Assembly: GCA_900318465.1 (NCBI GenBank) | Contig: ONKQ01000004.1 | Coordinates: 1 to 64,000, forward strand | Length of the DNA stretch: 64,000 nucleotides | DNA from: an uncultured Bacteroidales bacterium | GTDB taxonomy: Bacteria > Bacteroidota > Bacteroidia > Bacteroidales > F082 | Reading direction: 5' to 3' | Translations under genes and position numbers: made by a program | In this document: piece after piece, positions 49,114 through 60,693 of the stretch | How the letters are laid out: the number at the start of each line of letters is the position of its first letter | Numbering within the stretch: position 1 is the first letter of the stretch | Notes under the pieces: model-generated | Told to the model about the DNA's origin: nothing | Database searches by the model: none | Seen by the model: only the letters and a program-made list of their open reading frames with translations

Positions 49114-49986
49114 ATGAAAAAGACTTACAAAGTAGCTGGACATAAGTTCAATGTTATAATGCCCGATAGACATTTGGCATGGCATGAGTTGCAGAATTAC
49201 GAACCCTTTTTGGTCGAAGAGTCAGATGAATGCATTTTTACGGCCAGAATGCTGGATTTCCTGCCTGATACAACAACTAAGCAATTGGTGACGGTAAGTT
49301 GCCCAGGAGACGATTTCTCGAGAATTGAACTGTATAAATGGAACGACAAGTGGATGATGAGTGTAGCCCCTGTAAAAGAGGCCCCTGCTGCTGTACATTT
49401 ATTTGTCAACAAGAATTTTACGGATGTAGGCTTTTTTATCTCCGACAGTTTGAAATTCTCTCTTAACACAGTTTTGATGCTGATGTTTGCCCTTTCCACA
49501 GCGTGTAAGAATACACTACTAATGCATGCTTCTGTGACAATGCATAATGGCAAAGGCTATGTCTTCCTTGGCAAGAGCGGCACAGGCAAAAGCACGCACA
49601 GCCAACTATGGATTAATAATATAGAGAATTGCGAACTGCTCAACGACGACAACCCAATATTGCGAGTTGAAGACAACGGCGAGGTTCGTGTCTATGGTTC
49701 GCCTTGGAGTGGCAAGACTCCTTGCTACCGCAACCTTGACGTCCCGGTAGGTGCCATTGTCGACTTACATCAGGCCAAAAAGAACGTGATTAAGCGACAG
49801 TCATTACCCAACGCATACGCTTCGATTTATGTTTCGTTCTCAGGTTATCGATTCATCAAAGAGCAAGCCGACGGATTCCACGACACCAACGTAAAGATTG
49901 TCAGTACAGTACCTTGCTATTCTCTCGACTGCTTGCCCAATGCCGATGCTGCCTTCCTTTGTCATCAAACCGTAACGCAACAATGA
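49114..49986 (+). CDS. HPr-kinase-like (HprK-related) kinase of a RiPP-like cluster
   Basis: Protein of 290 residues. The kinase fold of HprK is recognisable: P-loop FLGKSGTGKSTHSQLW (Walker A, residues ~153-161), LLNDDNP (metal-binding acidic pair, ~176-181) and GSPWSGKTPCYRN with VPVGAIVDLHQAKKN. The N-terminal ~110 residues (LPDTTTKQLVTVSC, FVNKNFTDVGFFIS) are specific to this subgroup. Related kinases are found beside lasso-peptide genes, where they phosphorylate the precursor peptide. It overlaps the next gene by 4 nt and opens an operon with an S24/S26 peptidase, PqqD and a nucleotidyltransferase. It is not the carbon-catabolite HPr kinase, since no HPr gene is here. Confidence 0.85.
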   Translation: MKKTYKVAGHKFNVIMPDRHLAWHELQNYEPFLVEESDECIFTARMLDFLPDTTTKQLVTVSCPGDDFSRIELYKWNDKWMMSVAPVKEAPAAVHLFVNKNFTDVGFFISDSLKFSLNTVLMLMFALSTACKNTLLMHASVTMHNGKGYVFLGKSGTGKSTHSQLWINNIENCELLNDDNPILRVEDNGEVRVYGSPWSGKTPCYRNLDVPVGAIVDLHQAKKNVIKRQSLPNAYASIYVSFSGYRFIKEQADGFHDTNVKIVSTVPCYSLDCLPNADAAFLCHQTVTQQ

Positions 49987-50417
49987 AAAAGGCAATACTT
50001 GACGAACAAACCCCTGCTGAATTGAAAAAATGGATTGAAGAGGGTTGCACCGTTATCATCAATCCAAAAGGCATCAGTATGCTACCGTTCATCCACGAGG
50101 GGAAAGACAAAGTCCTCTTAAGTATACCTAACACCCTTAAAACGGGCGACATTGTTTTGATAAGCCTCAACGGACGGTATCTCATGCACCGCATTTATGC
50201 CATTGATGGTGACAATCTCACTCTGATGGGCGACGGCAACCTTAAAGGCAACGAGTACTGCAAAAAGTCGGATGTGGTTGGTCTTGTATCTGAAATCATC
50301 GACGAGAAAGGCAACCACCGAAAACCTGGAAAAGCATGGCTGTGGCGACACACCGTAGGCCTTCGCAAATACCAATTGAAAGCCTATAGAAAGTGCAAAA
50401 AACTATTGAAATCATAA
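49983..50417 (+). CDS. Small S24/S26-type signal-peptidase-like protein
   Basis: Protein of 144 residues. The signal-peptidase box PKGISMLPFIHEG gives the nucleophile Ser32, and TGDIVLISLNGRYLMHRIYA gives His69 where the bacterial type would have Lys; a Ser-His pair is characteristic of the SipW/archaeal branch. LTLMGDGNLKGNEYC is the usual third box (D). I see no membrane helix, so it may be soluble. In this operon it could cleave the small precursor peptide. Start ATG 49983 overlaps the kinase stop (ATGA). Confidence 0.85.
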   Translation: MKKAILDEQTPAELKKWIEEGCTVIINPKGISMLPFIHEGKDKVLLSIPNTLKTGDIVLISLNGRYLMHRIYAIDGDNLTLMGDGNLKGNEYCKKSDVVGLVSEIIDEKGNHRKPGKAWLWRHTVGLRKYQLKAYRKCKKLLKS

Positions 50418-50437
50418 TATCCTAAATACTTACACTC

Positions 50438-50707
50438 ATGAAAACAAAAAAAGGCTTTACGCTTCGTTCCTTGGGCAATGAACATCTTCTTGTGGCTGAA
50501 AGTGTGGAAATGACTAACTTCAACCGCATGATTTCGATGAACGAAAGTGCTGCCATGCTCTGGAAGGAGATTGATGGCAAAGACTTCGATGCCGAAACTT
50601 TGACCAATCTCCTTATGGAAAACTACGACATTAATCGCGATGTGGCTGAGCACGATGTGACAGCTTTGCTAAAGTCATGGAAAGAAGCGGGTATCATTGA
50701 GGATTAA
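50438..50707 (+). CDS. PqqD-family protein (RiPP recognition element)
   Basis: Protein of 89 residues with the PqqD winged-helix fold: LRSLGNEHLLVAESVEM and FNRMISMNESAAMLWKEIDG form the beta wing and first helix, and DVTALLKSWKEAGIIED the last helix. PqqD proteins bind the leader part of a ribosomally made peptide and present it to modifying enzymes. The ATG is 21 bp after the peptidase gene, and the nucleotidyltransferase starts 4 bp after the stop. This is the gene that marks the operon as peptide-modifying. Confidence 0.88.
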   Translation: MKTKKGFTLRSLGNEHLLVAESVEMTNFNRMISMNESAAMLWKEIDGKDFDAETLTNLLMENYDINRDVAEHDVTALLKSWKEAGIIED

Positions 50708-50710
50708 ACC

Positions 50711-51841
50711 ATGACCACCACCGAACAGCAATATTTTGCCCTCATGCGTGCCGCTCTATGGCAGCAACCCGTTGAATTTAATGGGGCTCCCGACTGGAAA
50801 GGCATCATGGGCATCGCACGTCATCATACCACTGAGGTATTAGTGGCCGATGTGGCCTCACGTCTTTCTGGAGATAACGCACCCTCTGATGCTTTGCTTC
50901 GTGAGATGAAAGCCTCCATGCGCGCGAATCTTATTAATCAATTGGAGCTGAAACAAATTCTCACCACAGCTATCACAGCCTTGAAAAACAAAGGCATCGA
51001 GCCGGTATTGCTTAAAGGTTTCGGTTTGGCTTTACTTTATCCCAATCCCAACTTGCGGCAGTTTGGCGACATCGACCTTTTTGTGGGTTTGCAACAGTTC
51101 CACGAAGCCTGCAAAGTGTTGCGCACACTTCCTGGAGGCTACAATTGGGGCGACGAGGTAGATTCAGGACGGCACTACAATATTGAGTTCGGGCATCATC
51201 CTATGGAAGTGCATCGCGTAAGTGCCGACTTCGTTAATTCAAAAGACTTGGCCGTCTATGCTAATATCGAACAAGACGGTTTGGTCAACAATAGGCAAAC
51301 CTTCGATTTCGAGGGATTCCCTCTACCTGTGCCTTCCAATGAGTTCACGGTATTCTTCACTTTCCTTCATGCATGGGAACATTTTACGTCCTCAGGCGTA
51401 GGTTGGCGACAAATCTCTGATGTGGCAATGGCTTTGCATACCTATTTGGGTACATCTGCGGATTCGCAAACAGCATCTTTCGACCTCAACAAACTACACA
51501 CATGGATCACAGCCATGCATCTTATGAAACCCTGGCAAACCTTTGGGTGGCTGATGGTTGCCTATCTTGGTCTGCCCGAAGCGGAAATGCCATTCTACAA
51601 TTCCTCATGCCGCCGAAAGGCGCAGAAGCTCTATGCCAGAGTGATGGCTGAGGGGAATTTCCGCCGTCCAAACCGCTACAAACACAACAAACCCAAAGGG
51701 CGCATTGCCAAGAAAGCCCATTCTTTTATTGGCATTTTCGTTGACTTTTTCCAATTGGCTAAAGTATTTCCAGCACAAGCATTCCGACAACTGAGTACCG
51801 CATTAAAAACAAGTTTTTCGAAAAATTTTCAAAAAAAATGA
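50711..51841 (+). CDS. Nucleotidyltransferase family protein (NTP_transf_5-like)
   Basis: Protein of 376 residues. The nucleotidyltransferase core is PVLLKGFGLALLYPNPNLRQ followed by FGDIDLFV (Gly119-Asp120-x-Asp122), with EFGHHPMEVH as a likely third acidic/histidine site. PF14907-type proteins occur with PqqD-like genes and kinases in lasso and related clusters, where their reaction is unknown; transferring a nucleotide or phosphate group to the peptide or a partner is inferred. The C-terminus is strongly basic (ALKTSFSKNFQKK). It is the last gene of the first transcription unit, followed by the peptide gene's own promoter. Confidence 0.85.
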   Translation: MTTTEQQYFALMRAALWQQPVEFNGAPDWKGIMGIARHHTTEVLVADVASRLSGDNAPSDALLREMKASMRANLINQLELKQILTTAITALKNKGIEPVLLKGFGLALLYPNPNLRQFGDIDLFVGLQQFHEACKVLRTLPGGYNWGDEVDSGRHYNIEFGHHPMEVHRVSADFVNSKDLAVYANIEQDGLVNNRQTFDFEGFPLPVPSNEFTVFFTFLHAWEHFTSSGVGWRQISDVAMALHTYLGTSADSQTASFDLNKLHTWITAMHLMKPWQTFGWLMVAYLGLPEAEMPFYNSSCRRKAQKLYARVMAEGNFRRPNRYKHNKPKGRIAKKAHSFIGIFVDFFQLAKVFPAQAFRQLSTALKTSFSKNFQKK

Positions 51842-51871
51842 TTTTTTTTCGCAGCGTATGAATTAATTGTC

Positions 51872-51879
51872 TATTTTTG
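51872..51879 (+). promoter_or_regulatory. -7 box for the small peptide gene
   Basis: TATTTTTG, 30 bp after the nucleotidyltransferase stop, giving an ~80-nt leader to ATG 51965. A strong separate promoter is what a precursor-peptide gene would have. Confidence 0.65.
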
Positions 51880-51964
51880 CAGCGAAAAAGACGTGAATAG
51901 GAAACACGACAACACAACTAACTAAATAACAAACTTAAAGTCTAACAATTAAAACTTAAACAAA

Positions 51965-52081
51965 ATGAAGACAATGAACAACAACTACGAAGCCCCTATG
52001 GCTGAAATGATTGAGCTGACTGCACAAGCTGTCTTAACCGCATCCAATGACTGGGGTATTACTCCCGTTATTAGCGAGTAA
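51965..52081 (+). CDS. 38-residue putative precursor peptide
   Basis: Short gene encoding 38 residues, beginning MKTMNNNYEAPMAEMIEL and ending DWGITPVISE. The leader-like front has Y8-x2-P11, the Tyr-x-x-Pro element that PqqD-type proteins recognise in lasso leaders, then an acidic-hydrophobic stretch (EMIEL) and a small-residue segment TAQAVLTAS that would suit cleavage. The last 11 residues (NDWGITPVISE) could be the core, with a penultimate Ser that an HprK-like kinase could phosphorylate. An ATG with no classical Shine-Dalgarno is normal in this phylum. Short peptides with this Y-x2-P-x2-E pattern are widespread beside Bacteroidota lipoproteins, but I know of no characterised product. Function is inferred from neighbours. 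Confidence 0.7.
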   Translation: MKTMNNNYEAPMAEMIELTAQAVLTASNDWGITPVISE

Positions 52082-52134
52082 AAAAAGCTAACAACCAGTA
52101 ACAGAAAACAAAACTGAACAAAAAAAAAAGCGAA

Positions 52135-53208
52135 ATGAAAGTAATTAGATTAGCATGTATGGTATGTGCGTTAGGAGCAATGTTCCTGACGGTTTCCTCT
52201 TGCAAAAAGCAAAATGACCAAACCACATTCAATCTCGGTATCAGCGAATGGCAAAGCGAAGACGATGAAAGAATGTACATCGATTTCCAAACCCATAAAC
52301 CAAAATGGAATGGTTTGGATGAAGTAATGGTCTACAACCTCGATTTTGAGGATGGAGAAAATTCGGTGTTTGATGTGTACAGAACTAATGCGGCTGCCGA
52401 AGGCCAAGATAGAGCTTCCTTCGTCGGATCAGTTGGTCCGGTGAAAGACGGTTATTTCACTTTCTATCCTGCCCAGATTACTGGCAGCTACGATGGTGAT
52501 GCTATGAATGTAGACAACAGAGAATCATTCCACGTCGATCCTGTTCAACATCTCACAATCTTCAAAAAGGGTAATAATTGGCTGAACACCATCGATCCTC
52601 TTGGATTTGCTGTTGCCCACAATCCTACAAACTTGACAAGCTTCGATTTCAGGCATATCTTTGGTATGCTTAGATTAGCTTTCCGTGGAGAGGATAATTT
52701 GATAATTGATCATGTCGAACTTATTGACAATCGCCACAATTTGTCAGGTGATGTCTCTCTCAAGTTGCCCAGAGTGGACACCGAAAAGCTTACCAATTTA
52801 ATCAATTATCTTAAGAATAGCCAGCTGGAAGATTTTGCCAATCTTTATCAAAGCTACGCCATCGAAGATCTTGGATTCGAAGTTACTCAAAATCAGTACT
52901 TGGGCAGAATGCTTACGCTCGACTGCTCATCTCATCCTGAACAATGCACGTTCCAAGATGGTTTCGCCAGAGATATGTATCTTGGCATTCGTCCTGGTGC
53001 ATTGACTGATGGTTTCAAATTGAAAGTTTATTTCCAGGGTGACAGAGCTGTATACGTTAAGCAATTCCTTGCGCCAAATTATGCCAAATGCTCCAAGCCT
53101 GGTGTGATTAGAACTATTAGTCCTACTTTCTTCTCCGAAGAGTTGTATGATGGTTCAGAAAATGCTCCTGGTGTATTTGGAAGTTGGGCTGAAGTTGAAG
53201 CTATGTAA
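52135..53208 (+). CDS. Fimbrillin-like outer-membrane lipoprotein
   Basis: Predicted lipoprotein of 357 residues (lipobox TVSSC, Cys ~23). The mature part is beta-rich with VMVYNLDFEDGENSV, FTFYPAQITGSYDGDAM and FRHIFGMLRLAFRG (the HxFxxLxF pattern of fimbrillin-fold proteins). The C-terminus IRTISPTFFSEELYDGSE fits the same group. It is 53 bp downstream of the small peptide gene, with no promoter between, so the pair is co-transcribed. It may be a pilus subunit, a tip protein or the surface carrier for the peptide; the choice cannot be made from sequence. A terminator closes the unit. Confidence 0.72.
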   Translation: MKVIRLACMVCALGAMFLTVSSCKKQNDQTTFNLGISEWQSEDDERMYIDFQTHKPKWNGLDEVMVYNLDFEDGENSVFDVYRTNAAAEGQDRASFVGSVGPVKDGYFTFYPAQITGSYDGDAMNVDNRESFHVDPVQHLTIFKKGNNWLNTIDPLGFAVAHNPTNLTSFDFRHIFGMLRLAFRGEDNLIIDHVELIDNRHNLSGDVSLKLPRVDTEKLTNLINYLKNSQLEDFANLYQSYAIEDLGFEVTQNQYLGRMLTLDCSSHPEQCTFQDGFARDMYLGIRPGALTDGFKLKVYFQGDRAVYVKQFLAPNYAKCSKPGVIRTISPTFFSEELYDGSENAPGVFGSWAEVEAM

Positions 53209-53227: not shown

Positions 53228-53261
53228 AAAAAGCGCTTTCCTTTCGGGAGGCGCTTTTTTT
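53228..53261 (+). terminator. Rho-independent terminator
   Basis: AAAAAGCGCTTTCC-TTTC-GGGAGGCGCTTTTT followed by further T. It ends the peptide/lipoprotein unit 20 bp after the stop. Confidence 0.92.
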
Positions 53262-57396: not shown

Positions 57397-58200
57397 ATGA
57401 AGAACAATTTCAATAAAATCGCCATTCTCATCATCATTTTCTCTGTCGGTTTAGCCTCGTGCGTACCGCAGAAAAAGATGCTTTATCTGAAAGAAGCCCA
57501 GATGGCAGCCGAGAACATCTCGAAGGAATACGTCAACGACCGCAGCGTCACCTACCGTCTTCAACCTGGAGACAATCTTTACATTCGTGCCATCAATACT
57601 ATTGACGAGCGTGGTGCTGCTGCCATTAATGGTGAAACCTCAATGCGCACCACACAGTTAAGCAGTGATGGTGGAATCTACCTCCAGTCACATACTGTAG
57701 CTGAAGATGGTTGCATTGAATTACCTCTTGTGGGTCGTGTGGAAGTGCGTAATCTCACCGTCGAGGAAGCTAAAGAAAGACTACAGACAGAGCTCAACAA
57801 GTATGTCAACCAAACCATGCTCATCGTCAAGCTGTCGAACTTCAACTTGACTGTACTTGGCGAAGTGACCCGTCCTGGTATGTATAAAGTCTATCAATCA
57901 CAAATCAATCTTTTTGAGGCCATCTCTATGGCAGGCAACATGACCAGTTTTGCCAAAAACGACGAGGTTAGAATCATCCGCCAAACTGACAATGGCTCCG
58001 AAATCGTAACTGTCAATATGGGTCAGGCCGATATCCTCGCATCGCCGTATTACTACCTGAAACCCAACGACATCATTTATGTGGAGCCGCTTAAAATCAA
58101 ACAATGGGGCTTCACTACATTCCCGTATTCCACTGTATTGTCGGTCGTCACTCTCGCCCTTACTATGCTTAGCCTTTACTTAAACAACAGAAACAAGTAA
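57397..58200 (+). CDS. Polysaccharide export lipoprotein (Wza-like)
   Basis: Outer-membrane lipoprotein of 267 residues (lipobox GLASC, Cys ~22). The Poly_export domain (YRLQPGDNLYIRAINTI), then SLBB-type segments (ELPLVGRVEVRNLTVEEA, TVLGEVTRPGMYKVYQSQI, EPLKIKQWGFTTFPYS) and a final hydrophobic helix. It is the secretion channel partner of the Wzc kinase encoded 12 bp downstream; the polymer is a capsule or exopolysaccharide. Confidence 0.93.
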   Translation: MKNNFNKIAILIIIFSVGLASCVPQKKMLYLKEAQMAAENISKEYVNDRSVTYRLQPGDNLYIRAINTIDERGAAAINGETSMRTTQLSSDGGIYLQSHTVAEDGCIELPLVGRVEVRNLTVEEAKERLQTELNKYVNQTMLIVKLSNFNLTVLGEVTRPGMYKVYQSQINLFEAISMAGNMTSFAKNDEVRIIRQTDNGSEIVTVNMGQADILASPYYYLKPNDIIYVEPLKIKQWGFTTFPYSTVLSVVTLALTMLSLYLNNRNK

Positions 58201-58212
58201 ACACAACTCACC

Positions 58213-60693
58213 ATGGCAAACGAAAAAACACGCATCCCACAACAAACCAACGAAGAGCAAAGTGTTGATATTAAACAATTGGTCTTCATAGCTTTGGATC
58301 ATTGGTATTTATTCGTCATTTTTGTAATGGCAGCTTTAGCCTGTGGTTTCATTATCAACCGTTATTCGACCAAGGTCTACCAAACAACGGGTACTGTCCT
58401 CATCAATGAAGGAGGTAAAAATTCATACGATCCAACGGCCATTATGACCTCTATGAACTTCGGTAGTTTCCAGAACATCGACAATGAGATAGCCATTCTC
58501 CAATCGTATACCCTCCGCGAGCGTGTCATCAAAAAGATGGGCATTGAAGTGACTTACCTTGAAAAAGGCCGCATTGCTTCCACTGAATTATACAAATGCG
58601 CACCTTTCCATGTAGAGTTTGAGCGCAGTGTGCCTCAGGCCGTAGGATTATCGTATGAGATAAGCTTCCTCGATAATGGCAACATCCAACTCCATGCCAT
58701 AGGCGAAGGCCTCTACAAATATGACTACATCCTCTGTCAATCAGCAGGGAGTGACCCCTTCGCTAAAATCGACACTATCGGAGAATACAAACAAGGTGAA
58801 TGGATTGACAATGGTTACAATCGCATCCGTATTACACAAATCGAGAATTTCAATCCTGAAATGATCAGGGGAAAAAGATTGGTGTTTTGGCTTAACAGCT
58901 ATCCGTCACTTGTCTCGCAGTTAAGTAATTTCTCCGTAAGTCCTATCTCCAAACAGGCTTCGGTGGCCTCTGTAATGGTGAAAGGCAACGACAAACGTAA
59001 AATTGTCGAGTTTGCCAATCTGCTTATGAACGAATATGTGAATCGTGGTTTGGAGAAAAAGAATCTTGTGTCGGAAAACACTATCGAGTTTATCGACAAC
59101 GAGTTAACTGGCATCCAAGAATCATTAGGCCAGGCTGAGACCGAACTGAAAGAATTCCGTCAGCAAAACGACTTGATGAACCTTGACTTACAAGCTAACC
59201 AAGTTTACACCAACCTGCAAGCTTTGGAAAAGGAGAGAGCCGAGAAGTCTGTCAACCTGAAGATTTACCAGCGAATGCAGGATTATATCCAAGTACAAAT
59301 TAACGACCCTGAAAATCTGGCATCTCCCAGCACAATGGGTATTAATGACCCGTTGCTTAACCAGTTAGCTCGCGACCTTGTCACTCTGTCACAAACCAAG
59401 GCCACTCAACTGCTTACCCAAACCGAGCAACACCCTCAAATTCAAAAGCTTAACGAACAAATCATCACTACGAAAAAGGCCTTATTGGAAACCATCAACA
59501 ATCTCGTCGACAACGCTCAAATGAGCCTTAATGAGATTTATGGCCGCATCGCCCGACTTGAAAATGAGTCGAAAAAACTGCCAGGCAAACAACAACAACT
59601 TATCAATTACCAACGTAATTACCAATTCACTGATGATACATACAAGTATTTGATGCAGCGTCGTGCCGAGGCCCAGATTTTGCGCGCCTCCAACACACCC
59701 GACAACGAAATTCTCGATGAAGCACGACTTGAGCGCACCTATCTTATCTCTCCTCGCACTTCGATGAATTATCTCATCGCCATTATTATCGGTCTGCTCA
59801 TCCCGTCCGTGTTTCTCTTCTTGAAGAACTTCTTCAACAACACTATTACCGACCGCAAGGACGTGGAAAAGCTGACCCGTTTCCCCATTGTTGGAATGGT
59901 GGCACAAAACAATTCGAAAAATCCTCTCCTTGTCATCAACAACCCCAAATCACCAGTATCGGAGGCTTTCCGCTCCATACGTACCAATGTCGAATACCTC
60001 TCCCAAAGCAAGACACCTTGCACCGTCCTTGTCACAGGCGATACCCAAAGCATTGGCAAGACCTTCAACAGTATCAACATTGCTTCGATTTATGCTCTTT
60101 ACGGCAAGAAGACAATTTTGCTCGGTTTCGACATGAGAAAACCCAAGCTCTTCCAAGAATTTGACCTTAACAATAATATTGGCCTGAGCAGTTACCTCTC
60201 CAATAAGGAATCTCTTGACAGCATCATACAAACCTCAAACAAGATACCCACTCTCGATATTATCACCTCCGGTCCCATCCCGCCCAACCCAGCTGAGCTG
60301 ATTGCTTCTGACAAGTGCAACGAATTGTTCACCGAGTTGAAGAAACGTTATGACTATATTGTCATCGACACGCCGCCCATCGCCCTTGTCACCGACGCTT
60401 TGTTGCTCATGCGCTATTCCGATGCCAATCTGTTCGTTGTGCGTCAAGGCGTGACTAACAAAAACGCTTTCGGCAGCATTATCAAAGACCTTGAGGAACG
60501 CGATATGCAGTTTGCCATTGTCCTCAACGGCCTTAAAGTCGAAAAGGGTTATGGCTATCGCTACGGTGGCGAGAAGTATGGCTATGGTTACGGCTACGGC
60601 TATGGTTATGGCTACGGAAGTGACTACTACGGCGAGATTGAAGATGACGACAAGAAAAAGAAACATCGCAAAAACCATAAAAGCAACAAGTAA
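58213..60693 (+). CDS. Wzc-like tyrosine autokinase / polysaccharide copolymerase
   Basis: Inner-membrane protein of 826 residues. Wzz domain with first helix (ALDHWYLFVIFVMAALACGF), long coiled-coil periplasmic region with GNVR-type LPGKQQQLINYQRNY, second helix (YLIAIIIGLLIPSVFLFLK), then BY-kinase domain: Walker A VTGDTQSIGKTFNS, Walker A' ILLGFDMRKPKL, Walker B YDYIVIDTPP. The tail is extraordinarily Tyr-rich (KGYGYRYGGEKYGYGYGYG then more GY), the expected autophosphorylation cluster, and then Lys-rich. It controls chain length and export with the Wza-like protein. The P-loop GDTQSIGKT is a slight variation of the usual GEGKT. Confidence 0.94.
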   Translation: MANEKTRIPQQTNEEQSVDIKQLVFIALDHWYLFVIFVMAALACGFIINRYSTKVYQTTGTVLINEGGKNSYDPTAIMTSMNFGSFQNIDNEIAILQSYTLRERVIKKMGIEVTYLEKGRIASTELYKCAPFHVEFERSVPQAVGLSYEISFLDNGNIQLHAIGEGLYKYDYILCQSAGSDPFAKIDTIGEYKQGEWIDNGYNRIRITQIENFNPEMIRGKRLVFWLNSYPSLVSQLSNFSVSPISKQASVASVMVKGNDKRKIVEFANLLMNEYVNRGLEKKNLVSENTIEFIDNELTGIQESLGQAETELKEFRQQNDLMNLDLQANQVYTNLQALEKERAEKSVNLKIYQRMQDYIQVQINDPENLASPSTMGINDPLLNQLARDLVTLSQTKATQLLTQTEQHPQIQKLNEQIITTKKALLETINNLVDNAQMSLNEIYGRIARLENESKKLPGKQQQLINYQRNYQFTDDTYKYLMQRRAEAQILRASNTPDNEILDEARLERTYLISPRTSMNYLIAIIIGLLIPSVFLFLKNFFNNTITDRKDVEKLTRFPIVGMVAQNNSKNPLLVINNPKSPVSEAFRSIRTNVEYLSQSKTPCTVLVTGDTQSIGKTFNSINIASIYALYGKKTILLGFDMRKPKLFQEFDLNNNIGLSSYLSNKESLDSIIQTSNKIPTLDIITSGPIPPNPAELIASDKCNELFTELKKRYDYIVIDTPPIALVTDALLLMRYSDANLFVVRQGVTNKNAFGSIIKDLEERDMQFAIVLNGLKVEKGYGYRYGGEKYGYGYGYGYGYGYGSDYYGEIEDDDKKKKHRKNHKSNK

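Follow-up and report, generated by a model that had tools for sequence, protein, structure and literature searches.

A probable peptide-modification cassette of Bacteroidales resembling the linear polyphosphorylated peptide pathway, with dispersed peptide-lipoprotein gene pairs

Linear polyphosphorylated peptides (LPP), encoded by the lppAKBSDN genes of Paenibacillus alginolyticus, were reported in 2026 (May). The LPP set comprises an HprK-like kinase, an S26-type peptidase, a PqqD-like recognition element (RRE) for ribosomally synthesized and post-translationally modified peptides (RiPPs), a nucleoside triphosphate (NTP) transferase, a precursor with a YxxP motif and an MsbA-like exporter, the core being devoid of the lasso protease. 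Experiments in Bacillus subtilis and cleavage assays revealed multiple phosphorylation that depends on the kinase and leader removal that depends on the peptidase and the RRE. The phosphorylated Ser3 of LppA is found 18 residues past Tyr-16 (counted from the paper's numbering). Each cluster has one to three precursors, whose role was called unknown by the authors; they describe LPP as restricted to Bacillota and its main sequence cluster as 'predominantly' Bacillota (PMC13381572). Paeninodin-type lasso clusters feature a kinase, an RRE, a nucleotidyltransferase-type enzyme and a YxxP-like leader (PMC9266682, PMC13381572), and the acceptor serine of paeninodin and pseudomycoidin is C-terminal (PMC9266682). 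Here we analyse a six-gene cassette from a stretch of 64,000 nucleotides (the window), which is part of contig C60 of genome G000 (3.67 Mb, order Bacteroidales). It is probably a Bacteroidales form of the LPP pathway, mostly without an exporter and acting in trans on dispersed pairs of peptide and lipoprotein genes. The system is recognised by its gene set, catalytic residues, leader motif, serine spacing, co-distribution of peptide and RRE, and pairing of peptide and lipoprotein genes.

The arrangement of kinase, peptidase, PqqD, PF14907, peptide and lipoprotein genes, all on the + strand, was outlined in an initial annotation of this DNA and is confirmed in its coordinates, overlap and gaps. 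The kinase and peptidase genes overlap by 4 base pairs (bp; ATGA), and the next gaps are 20 bp (peptidase-PqqD) and 3 bp (PqqD-PF14907). The features are the following:

49114..49986, + strand: HprK/PEPCK-like peptide kinase (LppK-like), 290 amino acids (aa), with H138, P-loop K159 and D178-D179.
49983..50417, + strand: S26/S24-type peptidase (LppS-like), 144 aa, with S32 (SMLP), H69 (HR) and D84 (GDG).
50438..50707, + strand: discrete RRE (PqqD family, LppB-like), 89 aa, with N35 and D73.
50711..51841, + strand: PF14907 nucleotidyltransferase-like enzyme (LppN-like), 376 aa, with G119-D120-x-D122.
51872..51879, + strand: TAnnTTTG box, starting 93 nucleotides (nt) 5' of the peptide start.
51965..52081, + strand: precursor peptide, 38 aa (38 codons), with YEAP at residues 8-11 (51986-51997) and candidate phospho-acceptor Ser27 (52043-52045).
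52135..53208, + strand: lipoprotein, 357 aa, product of the peptide's partner gene, with Cys23 followed by KK.
53228..53259, + strand: terminator-like hairpin of 14 pairs with a T run.

Three of the enzymes match Pfam families over cut-off: the peptidase PF00717 (26.2 bits, cut-off 23.3), the PqqD protein PF05402 (59 bits) and the nucleotidyltransferase-like enzyme PF14907 (123 bits). The initial family calls stand for these proteins; the kinase lacks a Pfam or NCBIfam match above cut-off (best PEPCK_ATP, 19.2 bits) but retains its catalytic residues. Its NCBIfam matches below cut-off include HprK_rel_B and two distant kin, ScmC (TIGR04249, 21.9 bits, curated cut-off 125) and HprK_rel_A (TIGR04352, 20.9 bits, curated cut-off 200), and the closest PDB sequence is PEPCK (E 0.0021). 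H138, K159, D178 and D179 are invariant in 13 of 13 aligned kinase sequences and agree with the His-Lys-Asp-Asp motif of lasso kinases. The peptidase residues S32, H69 and D84, invariant in 12 of 12 aligned sequences, agree with the triad S29, H68 and D93 of LppS; the closest PDB sequences are LexA and SEC11A, and NCBIfam gave a match to signal peptidase I below cut-off. For the PqqD protein the matches in NCBIfam, likewise below cut-off, are to GeoRSP and lasso chaperones, and TfuB1 is matched in PDB (E 0.0014). RRE residues N35 and D73, invariant in 13 of 13 aligned sequences, are predicted to contact the leader: by position and by the TfuB1 match they are equated with LppB N33 and D70, the residues by which, according to the LPP report, the leader proline and tyrosine are held (PMC13381572). 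The G119-D120-x-D122 motif of the PF14907 enzyme is also invariant (13 of 13), and LppN probably belongs to the PF14907 family.

The PF14907 search gave a match in 12 of 119 genomes of the bacterial family, that of the window included, all from one genus. Of the 11 other genomes, from which the PF14907 match was retrieved, 10 keep the order kinase-peptidase-RRE-PF14907-peptide-lipoprotein. With all six genes arranged alike in these genomes, the arrangement is not due to chance. The exception, G090 (G, C and L numbers designate genomes, contigs and loci), has the order PF14907-kinase-peptidase-RRE, with an ABC transporter gene next. From the 55 RRE matches outside the genus, obtained by scoring at most the best 13 candidates per genome, 40 loci of other Bacteroidales were inspected, some of which end at contig ends. 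Kinase, peptidase and RRE are jointly present in 33 of the 40, in line with the conserved co-occurrence of enzyme genes against which the initial proposal was to be checked, and a short YxxP peptide, likewise expected, is present in homologous loci. Kinase homologues occur in 34 of the 40 loci, 30 of them with the strict motif pattern and the other four with the His and D-D as read by eye. Peptidase homologues occur also in 34, all with SMxP and 33 with the pattern SMxP-HR-GD (L113 has HRY), and a PF14907 homologue in 23. A contig scan with a single RRE sequence as query yielded two loci. Locus L026 has the order RRE-PF14907-ABC with the kinase gene on the opposite strand. Three genomes of the window's genus (G533, G093 and G116; loci L178, L179 and L180, respectively) carry a divergent RRE-kinase-peptidase trio without PF14907, where no peptide was detected.

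Across 99 genomes of the genus the RRE scores at least 130 bits in 34, the divergent RRE of the three genomes above scores about 50 bits, and no RRE was found in 62. The peptide family, searched with a combined profile, is present in exactly those 34 cassette genomes and in none of the 65 others. The profile was built from 12 of the 34, and all 22 held-out positives carry peptides. Twenty-one of the 65 peptide-less genomes are close relatives, with an aminotransferase at least 95% identical to that of the window; G541, whose aminotransferase is split (93% and 99%), was for that reason not counted. The 34 genomes code for 103 peptides, 1 to 8 per genome: 31, in as many genomes, are linked (no more than 5 kb from the RRE), and the other 72, spread over 26 genomes, are unlinked. 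A profile of linked peptides matched 12 of 12 PF14907 positives and none of 20 negatives (E 0.1), with weaker matches away from the cassette in positives only. The profile of the second, unlinked type matched 12 of 12 positives and one of the 20 negatives (G098, weak, E 0.002), among which was the divergent-RRE genome G093. In 393 genomes of the order the RRE was found in 56 and peptide matches in seven, six of them among the 56 (for G228 the best 17 of 25 candidates were scored). The hypergeometric probability of this overlap, which ignores relatedness, is 4e-5, or 0.0015 without G000 and G051. The initial assignment to a RiPP-type peptide system is supported. The system can no longer be termed undescribed, since the LPP family, published in May 2026, has this enzyme set (PMC13381572). 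No LPP from Bacteroidota was found in searches of one open-access library, in agreement with the Bacillota-only statement of the LPP authors (PMC13381572).

In the linked peptides the leader is constant (roughly MKKMNKxYEAPKAEVIE) and the ends vary. The Y..P motif is present in all 103 peptides. Of the 72 unlinked peptides, 69 have a serine at +19 from the leader tyrosine and the remaining three, whose spacer is longer by one residue, have it at +20, so that all 72 have one within +18 to +20; at any other offset between 12 and 29 a serine is found in at most 19 of the 72. Linked peptides have this serine at +19 in 14 of 31 cases, Ser27 of the window peptide included, serine or threonine at +18 to +20 in 20 of 31, and one of the two at some position from +15 onward in all 31. 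At the order level the serine is at +19 in the five peptides recovered, from eight loci scanned of which three yielded no open reading frame (ORF) past the filter. Candidate precursors near more distant cassettes, chosen by eye from a regular expression listing of 9 of the 40 loci plus L026, have serine or threonine at +18 to +20 in 9 of 10 cases as read by eye. The fixed place of the serine is the strongest pointer to a possible phosphorylation of the peptides, and the linked peptides are the strongest exception. Sixty-three of the 72 unlinked peptides have also a cysteine at +17, two residues ahead of the usual serine, and many end in TESM...D..W(P), e.g. in L095 (1117-1269) and L105 (5039-5206). 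Distant Bacteroidales loci L139, L140, L141, L144 and L146 encode candidate precursors with Y..P, an aspartate at +11 and, after a LIM-like hydrophobic stretch, serine or threonine at +20; this ORF stands between the RRE and kinase genes in all but L146, in which no kinase was found.

The short ORF, usually found directly 5' of a lipoprotein gene and probably part of the same transcript, might be thought to act as a regulatory leader or upstream ORF of that gene instead of coding for a substrate. Over 11 codons from the motif, differences at codon positions 1, 2 and 3 amount to 0.23, 0.08 and 0.45 of the comparisons in the linked set and to 0.26, 0.15 and 0.58 in the unlinked set. Third positions vary most in the leader, as is to be expected if the ORF is translated. 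Such conservation at the protein level, the exact co-distribution with the RRE that extends to unlinked copies, and the presence of YxxP in 103 of 103 peptides render a regulatory leader very unlikely.

An ORF with a lipobox of strict pattern directly follows all 31 linked peptides and 55 of the 72 unlinked ones. Three more unlinked peptides precede ORFs with an AQC or SQC lipobox recognised by eye (G509:C95, G507:C277 and G507:C289), bringing their number to 58 of 72. Peptide and lipoprotein genes belong together, as initially proposed. The intergenic gap is at most 72 nt in 84 of the 86 strict cases and 276 and 324 nt in the other two, both unlinked. The residues after the lipobox cysteine are most commonly KKN or KKD; the window lipoprotein has ..SSC-KK, as read by eye. 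Outside the genus, a lipoprotein-like ORF comes within 22 nt after each of the two peptides of G324; the two peptides of G228 and the one of G408 were seen to have no ORF of 100 aa within 250 nt. In L026 a YxxP ORF is directly 5' of an ORF that starts like a lipoprotein and has leucine-rich repeats. Partners in the set examined are 282-1223 aa long. Among six scanned, one has an fn3 match over cut-off and another an InlB-type repeat together with a weak match to Fib_succ_major below cut-off. The designation of the window lipoprotein as fimbrillin-like finds little sequence support: it has no Pfam match over cut-off, one of 11 aligned lipoproteins matches Mfa_like_1 (E 0.014), and the best PDB matches of the lipoprotein profile are a ribosomal protein (E 0.038) and 4k4k, a 'putative cell adhesion protein' (E 0.1).

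The favoured interpretation of this pairing is that peptide and lipoprotein work together at the cell envelope. Its main rival is a peptide-immunity pair, in which the modified peptide would be a bacteriocin or contact toxin and the adjacent lipoprotein would shield the envelope of the producer. The patchy presence of the system, the variable C termini and the existence of up to eight peptide genes per genome, usually with one lipoprotein each, would fit immunity. Yet several partners are long (465-1223 aa) and those with fn3 or InlB-type repeats look more adhesin-like, an LPP-type exporter was not found in 30 of the 34 genomes, and three lipoprotein relatives persist without peptide, making immunity rather unlikely. 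The pairing, repeated several times in many genomes, would also be compatible with a peptide that acts as a pheromone or signal and a lipoprotein that receives or carries it at the surface, an explanation considered improbable. Returning to the working pair, it is tentatively conceivable that these RiPPs are structural parts of the envelope, the phosphorylated and possibly glycosylated peptide being a dedicated, non-diffusible ligand, cap or cofactor of its own lipoprotein.

The presence of a kinase, an RRE, a nucleotidyltransferase-type enzyme and a YxxP-like leader, as in the paeninodin-type clusters, raises the alternative of a lasso cluster whose B2 and cyclase genes are located elsewhere in the genome. 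The B2 family PF13471 has no match in any of the 34 cassette genomes of the window's genus, confirming its absence from related clusters that the initial annotation left to be checked. It scores over cut-off in four of 39 order-level RRE genomes, three times on a contig different from that of the RRE and once 368 kb away from it, and below cut-off in two more. None of the cassette's six genes and none of the eight flanking genes scanned in the window code for an asparagine-synthetase-like cyclase, no genome-wide search for it having been made. The lasso explanation, largely refuted for B2, was rejected because no B2 was found in the 34 genomes, and it retains hardly any likelihood.

The pathway that we propose would operate as follows. 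The RRE would bind the short peptide by its YxxP leader and present it to the kinase and to the peptidase. The kinase would (poly)phosphorylate the serine about 19 residues past the leader tyrosine (Ser27 in the window peptide) and the S26-type Ser-His-Asp peptidase would cut off the leader. The next step, decoration of the phosphate, is probably the work of the PF14907 enzyme, by comparison with PsmN, which is linked to hexoses on phospho-pseudomycoidin. A single cassette may serve all peptides of the family in a genome, each expressed from its own small unit, and the lipoprotein usually encoded with the peptide is its most likely working partner at the cell envelope. Decoration, action in trans and the envelope partnership are inferences of our own.

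A number of observations weigh against this proposal. Phosphorylation and leader cleavage are, for the Bacteroidales system, inferred from the LPP work, and deletion of lppN had no effect in the published host (PMC13381572). The serine at +19 is absent from 17 of the 31 linked peptides (that of the window has it), 11 of the 31 have neither serine nor threonine at +18 to +20, and three of the 34 cassette genomes (G090, G507 and G536) have no linked peptide. For fourteen of the 72 unlinked peptides no lipoprotein start can be recognised within 330 nt: in six cases the next ORF is a different one (first copy in G511:C139, first in G112:C52, G548:C18, G509:C104, G542:C85 and G537:C22), and in eight there is no ORF of 100 aa in that interval, three of these being at contig ends. 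G408 has a peptide match without an RRE match, in a genus shared with RRE-bearing genomes. The cassette-less G098 has, on the contig of its weak peptide match, other YxxP short ORFs beside surface-protein-like genes (L174, G098:C69; 1355-1653 and 3268-3405), which hints at a wider peptide family independent of the window-type RRE. A model of clustered ABC transporters, with the best 24 of 28-56 candidates scored per cassette genome, found no LPP-type exporter in 30 of the 34. The four with a match above 600 bits are G090, G507, G509 and G542; in 25 of the others the only transporter scores about 218-230 bits, like in cassette-less genomes, and in five there is none at E 1e-60. No MsbA-like exporter gene is found beside the window cassette, among its six genes and the eight flanking ones. 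An ABC gene is present in 30 of the 40 order-level RRE loci, the model catching general ABC transporters too.

Relatedness of the genomes bears also on the proposal. A clade artefact as the source of the association was checked by aminotransferase identity and by a tree of 24 genomes (lnt, dus). On the best tree the cassette label undergoes four changes, at least three of them on well-supported branches. A pair test on this tree gave only three independent contrasts (p 0.25), a further point of caution; the cassette label was paired with itself because peptide presence labels the 24 genomes identically. The association is therefore exact and the independent events are few. In six of seven cassette-less loci examined lnt is followed by unrelated genes. 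Three of the 25 cassette-less genomes searched (G560, which has the seventh of these loci, G515 and G546) keep beside lnt a lipoprotein relative (251-256 bits) with a TAnnTTTG box in the absence of cassette or peptide, which likewise counts against the proposal. The tree and these lone lipoproteins thus indicate that the peptide and the enzymes come and go jointly and that the lipoprotein at the lnt site can stand alone.

The TAnnTTTG sequence, which we take to be the Bacteroidota -7 promoter box, is located 73-94 nt upstream of the peptide start in all 11 linked loci examined (window and 10 others). Terminator-like sites in the region number three compared to a mean of 4.6 in shuffled sequences, which is no excess despite the 14-pair hairpin. 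The cassette is flanked by genes coding for a class-III aminotransferase, Dus, apolipoprotein N-acyltransferase (lnt), a FtsW/RodA-type protein and a penicillin-binding protein. Positions 57397-60690 (+ strand) of the window, some 4 kb away from the cassette, code for a protein of polysaccharide export (PF02563) and for a Wzz/GNVR/AAA_31 protein whose carboxyl terminus is rich in Gly and Tyr. Capsule loci often adjoin the LPP loci of Bacilli, according to the LPP paper (PMC13381572).

The Bacteroidales systems extend the LPP gene set to a second phylum, and because most peptides come with a partner gene, their function can be tested directly. They provide also a search rule for small precursors: YxxP, a serine 19 residues on, then a lipoprotein gene. 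Mining of gene clusters would miss such precursors because most are located away from the enzymes.

Compared to the paeninodin and pseudomycoidin lasso systems (PadeK, PsmK and PsmN), the window system has in common the His-Lys-Asp-Asp kinase, the RRE and the nucleotidyltransferase-type enzyme, and differs in that no B2 was found and an S26-type peptidase is present instead. Its likeness to LPP comprises the kinase, the discrete RRE, the SpI/S26-type Ser-His-Asp peptidase, the NTP transferase, the short YxxP precursor and a core set without cyclase. The comparison was made by description, hence the system is classified as a variant of LPP rather than as an established member of its clade. LPP systems are described from Bacillota and with an MsbA-like exporter, while the present ones are from Bacteroidales and mostly lack a detected exporter; the serine is 18 residues behind the leader tyrosine in LPP and 19 in Bacteroidales, whose linked peptides often have no serine there. 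LPP clusters are described with one to three precursors each, whereas 72 of the 103 Bacteroidales peptides are encoded away from the cassette, most of them followed by a lipoprotein gene.

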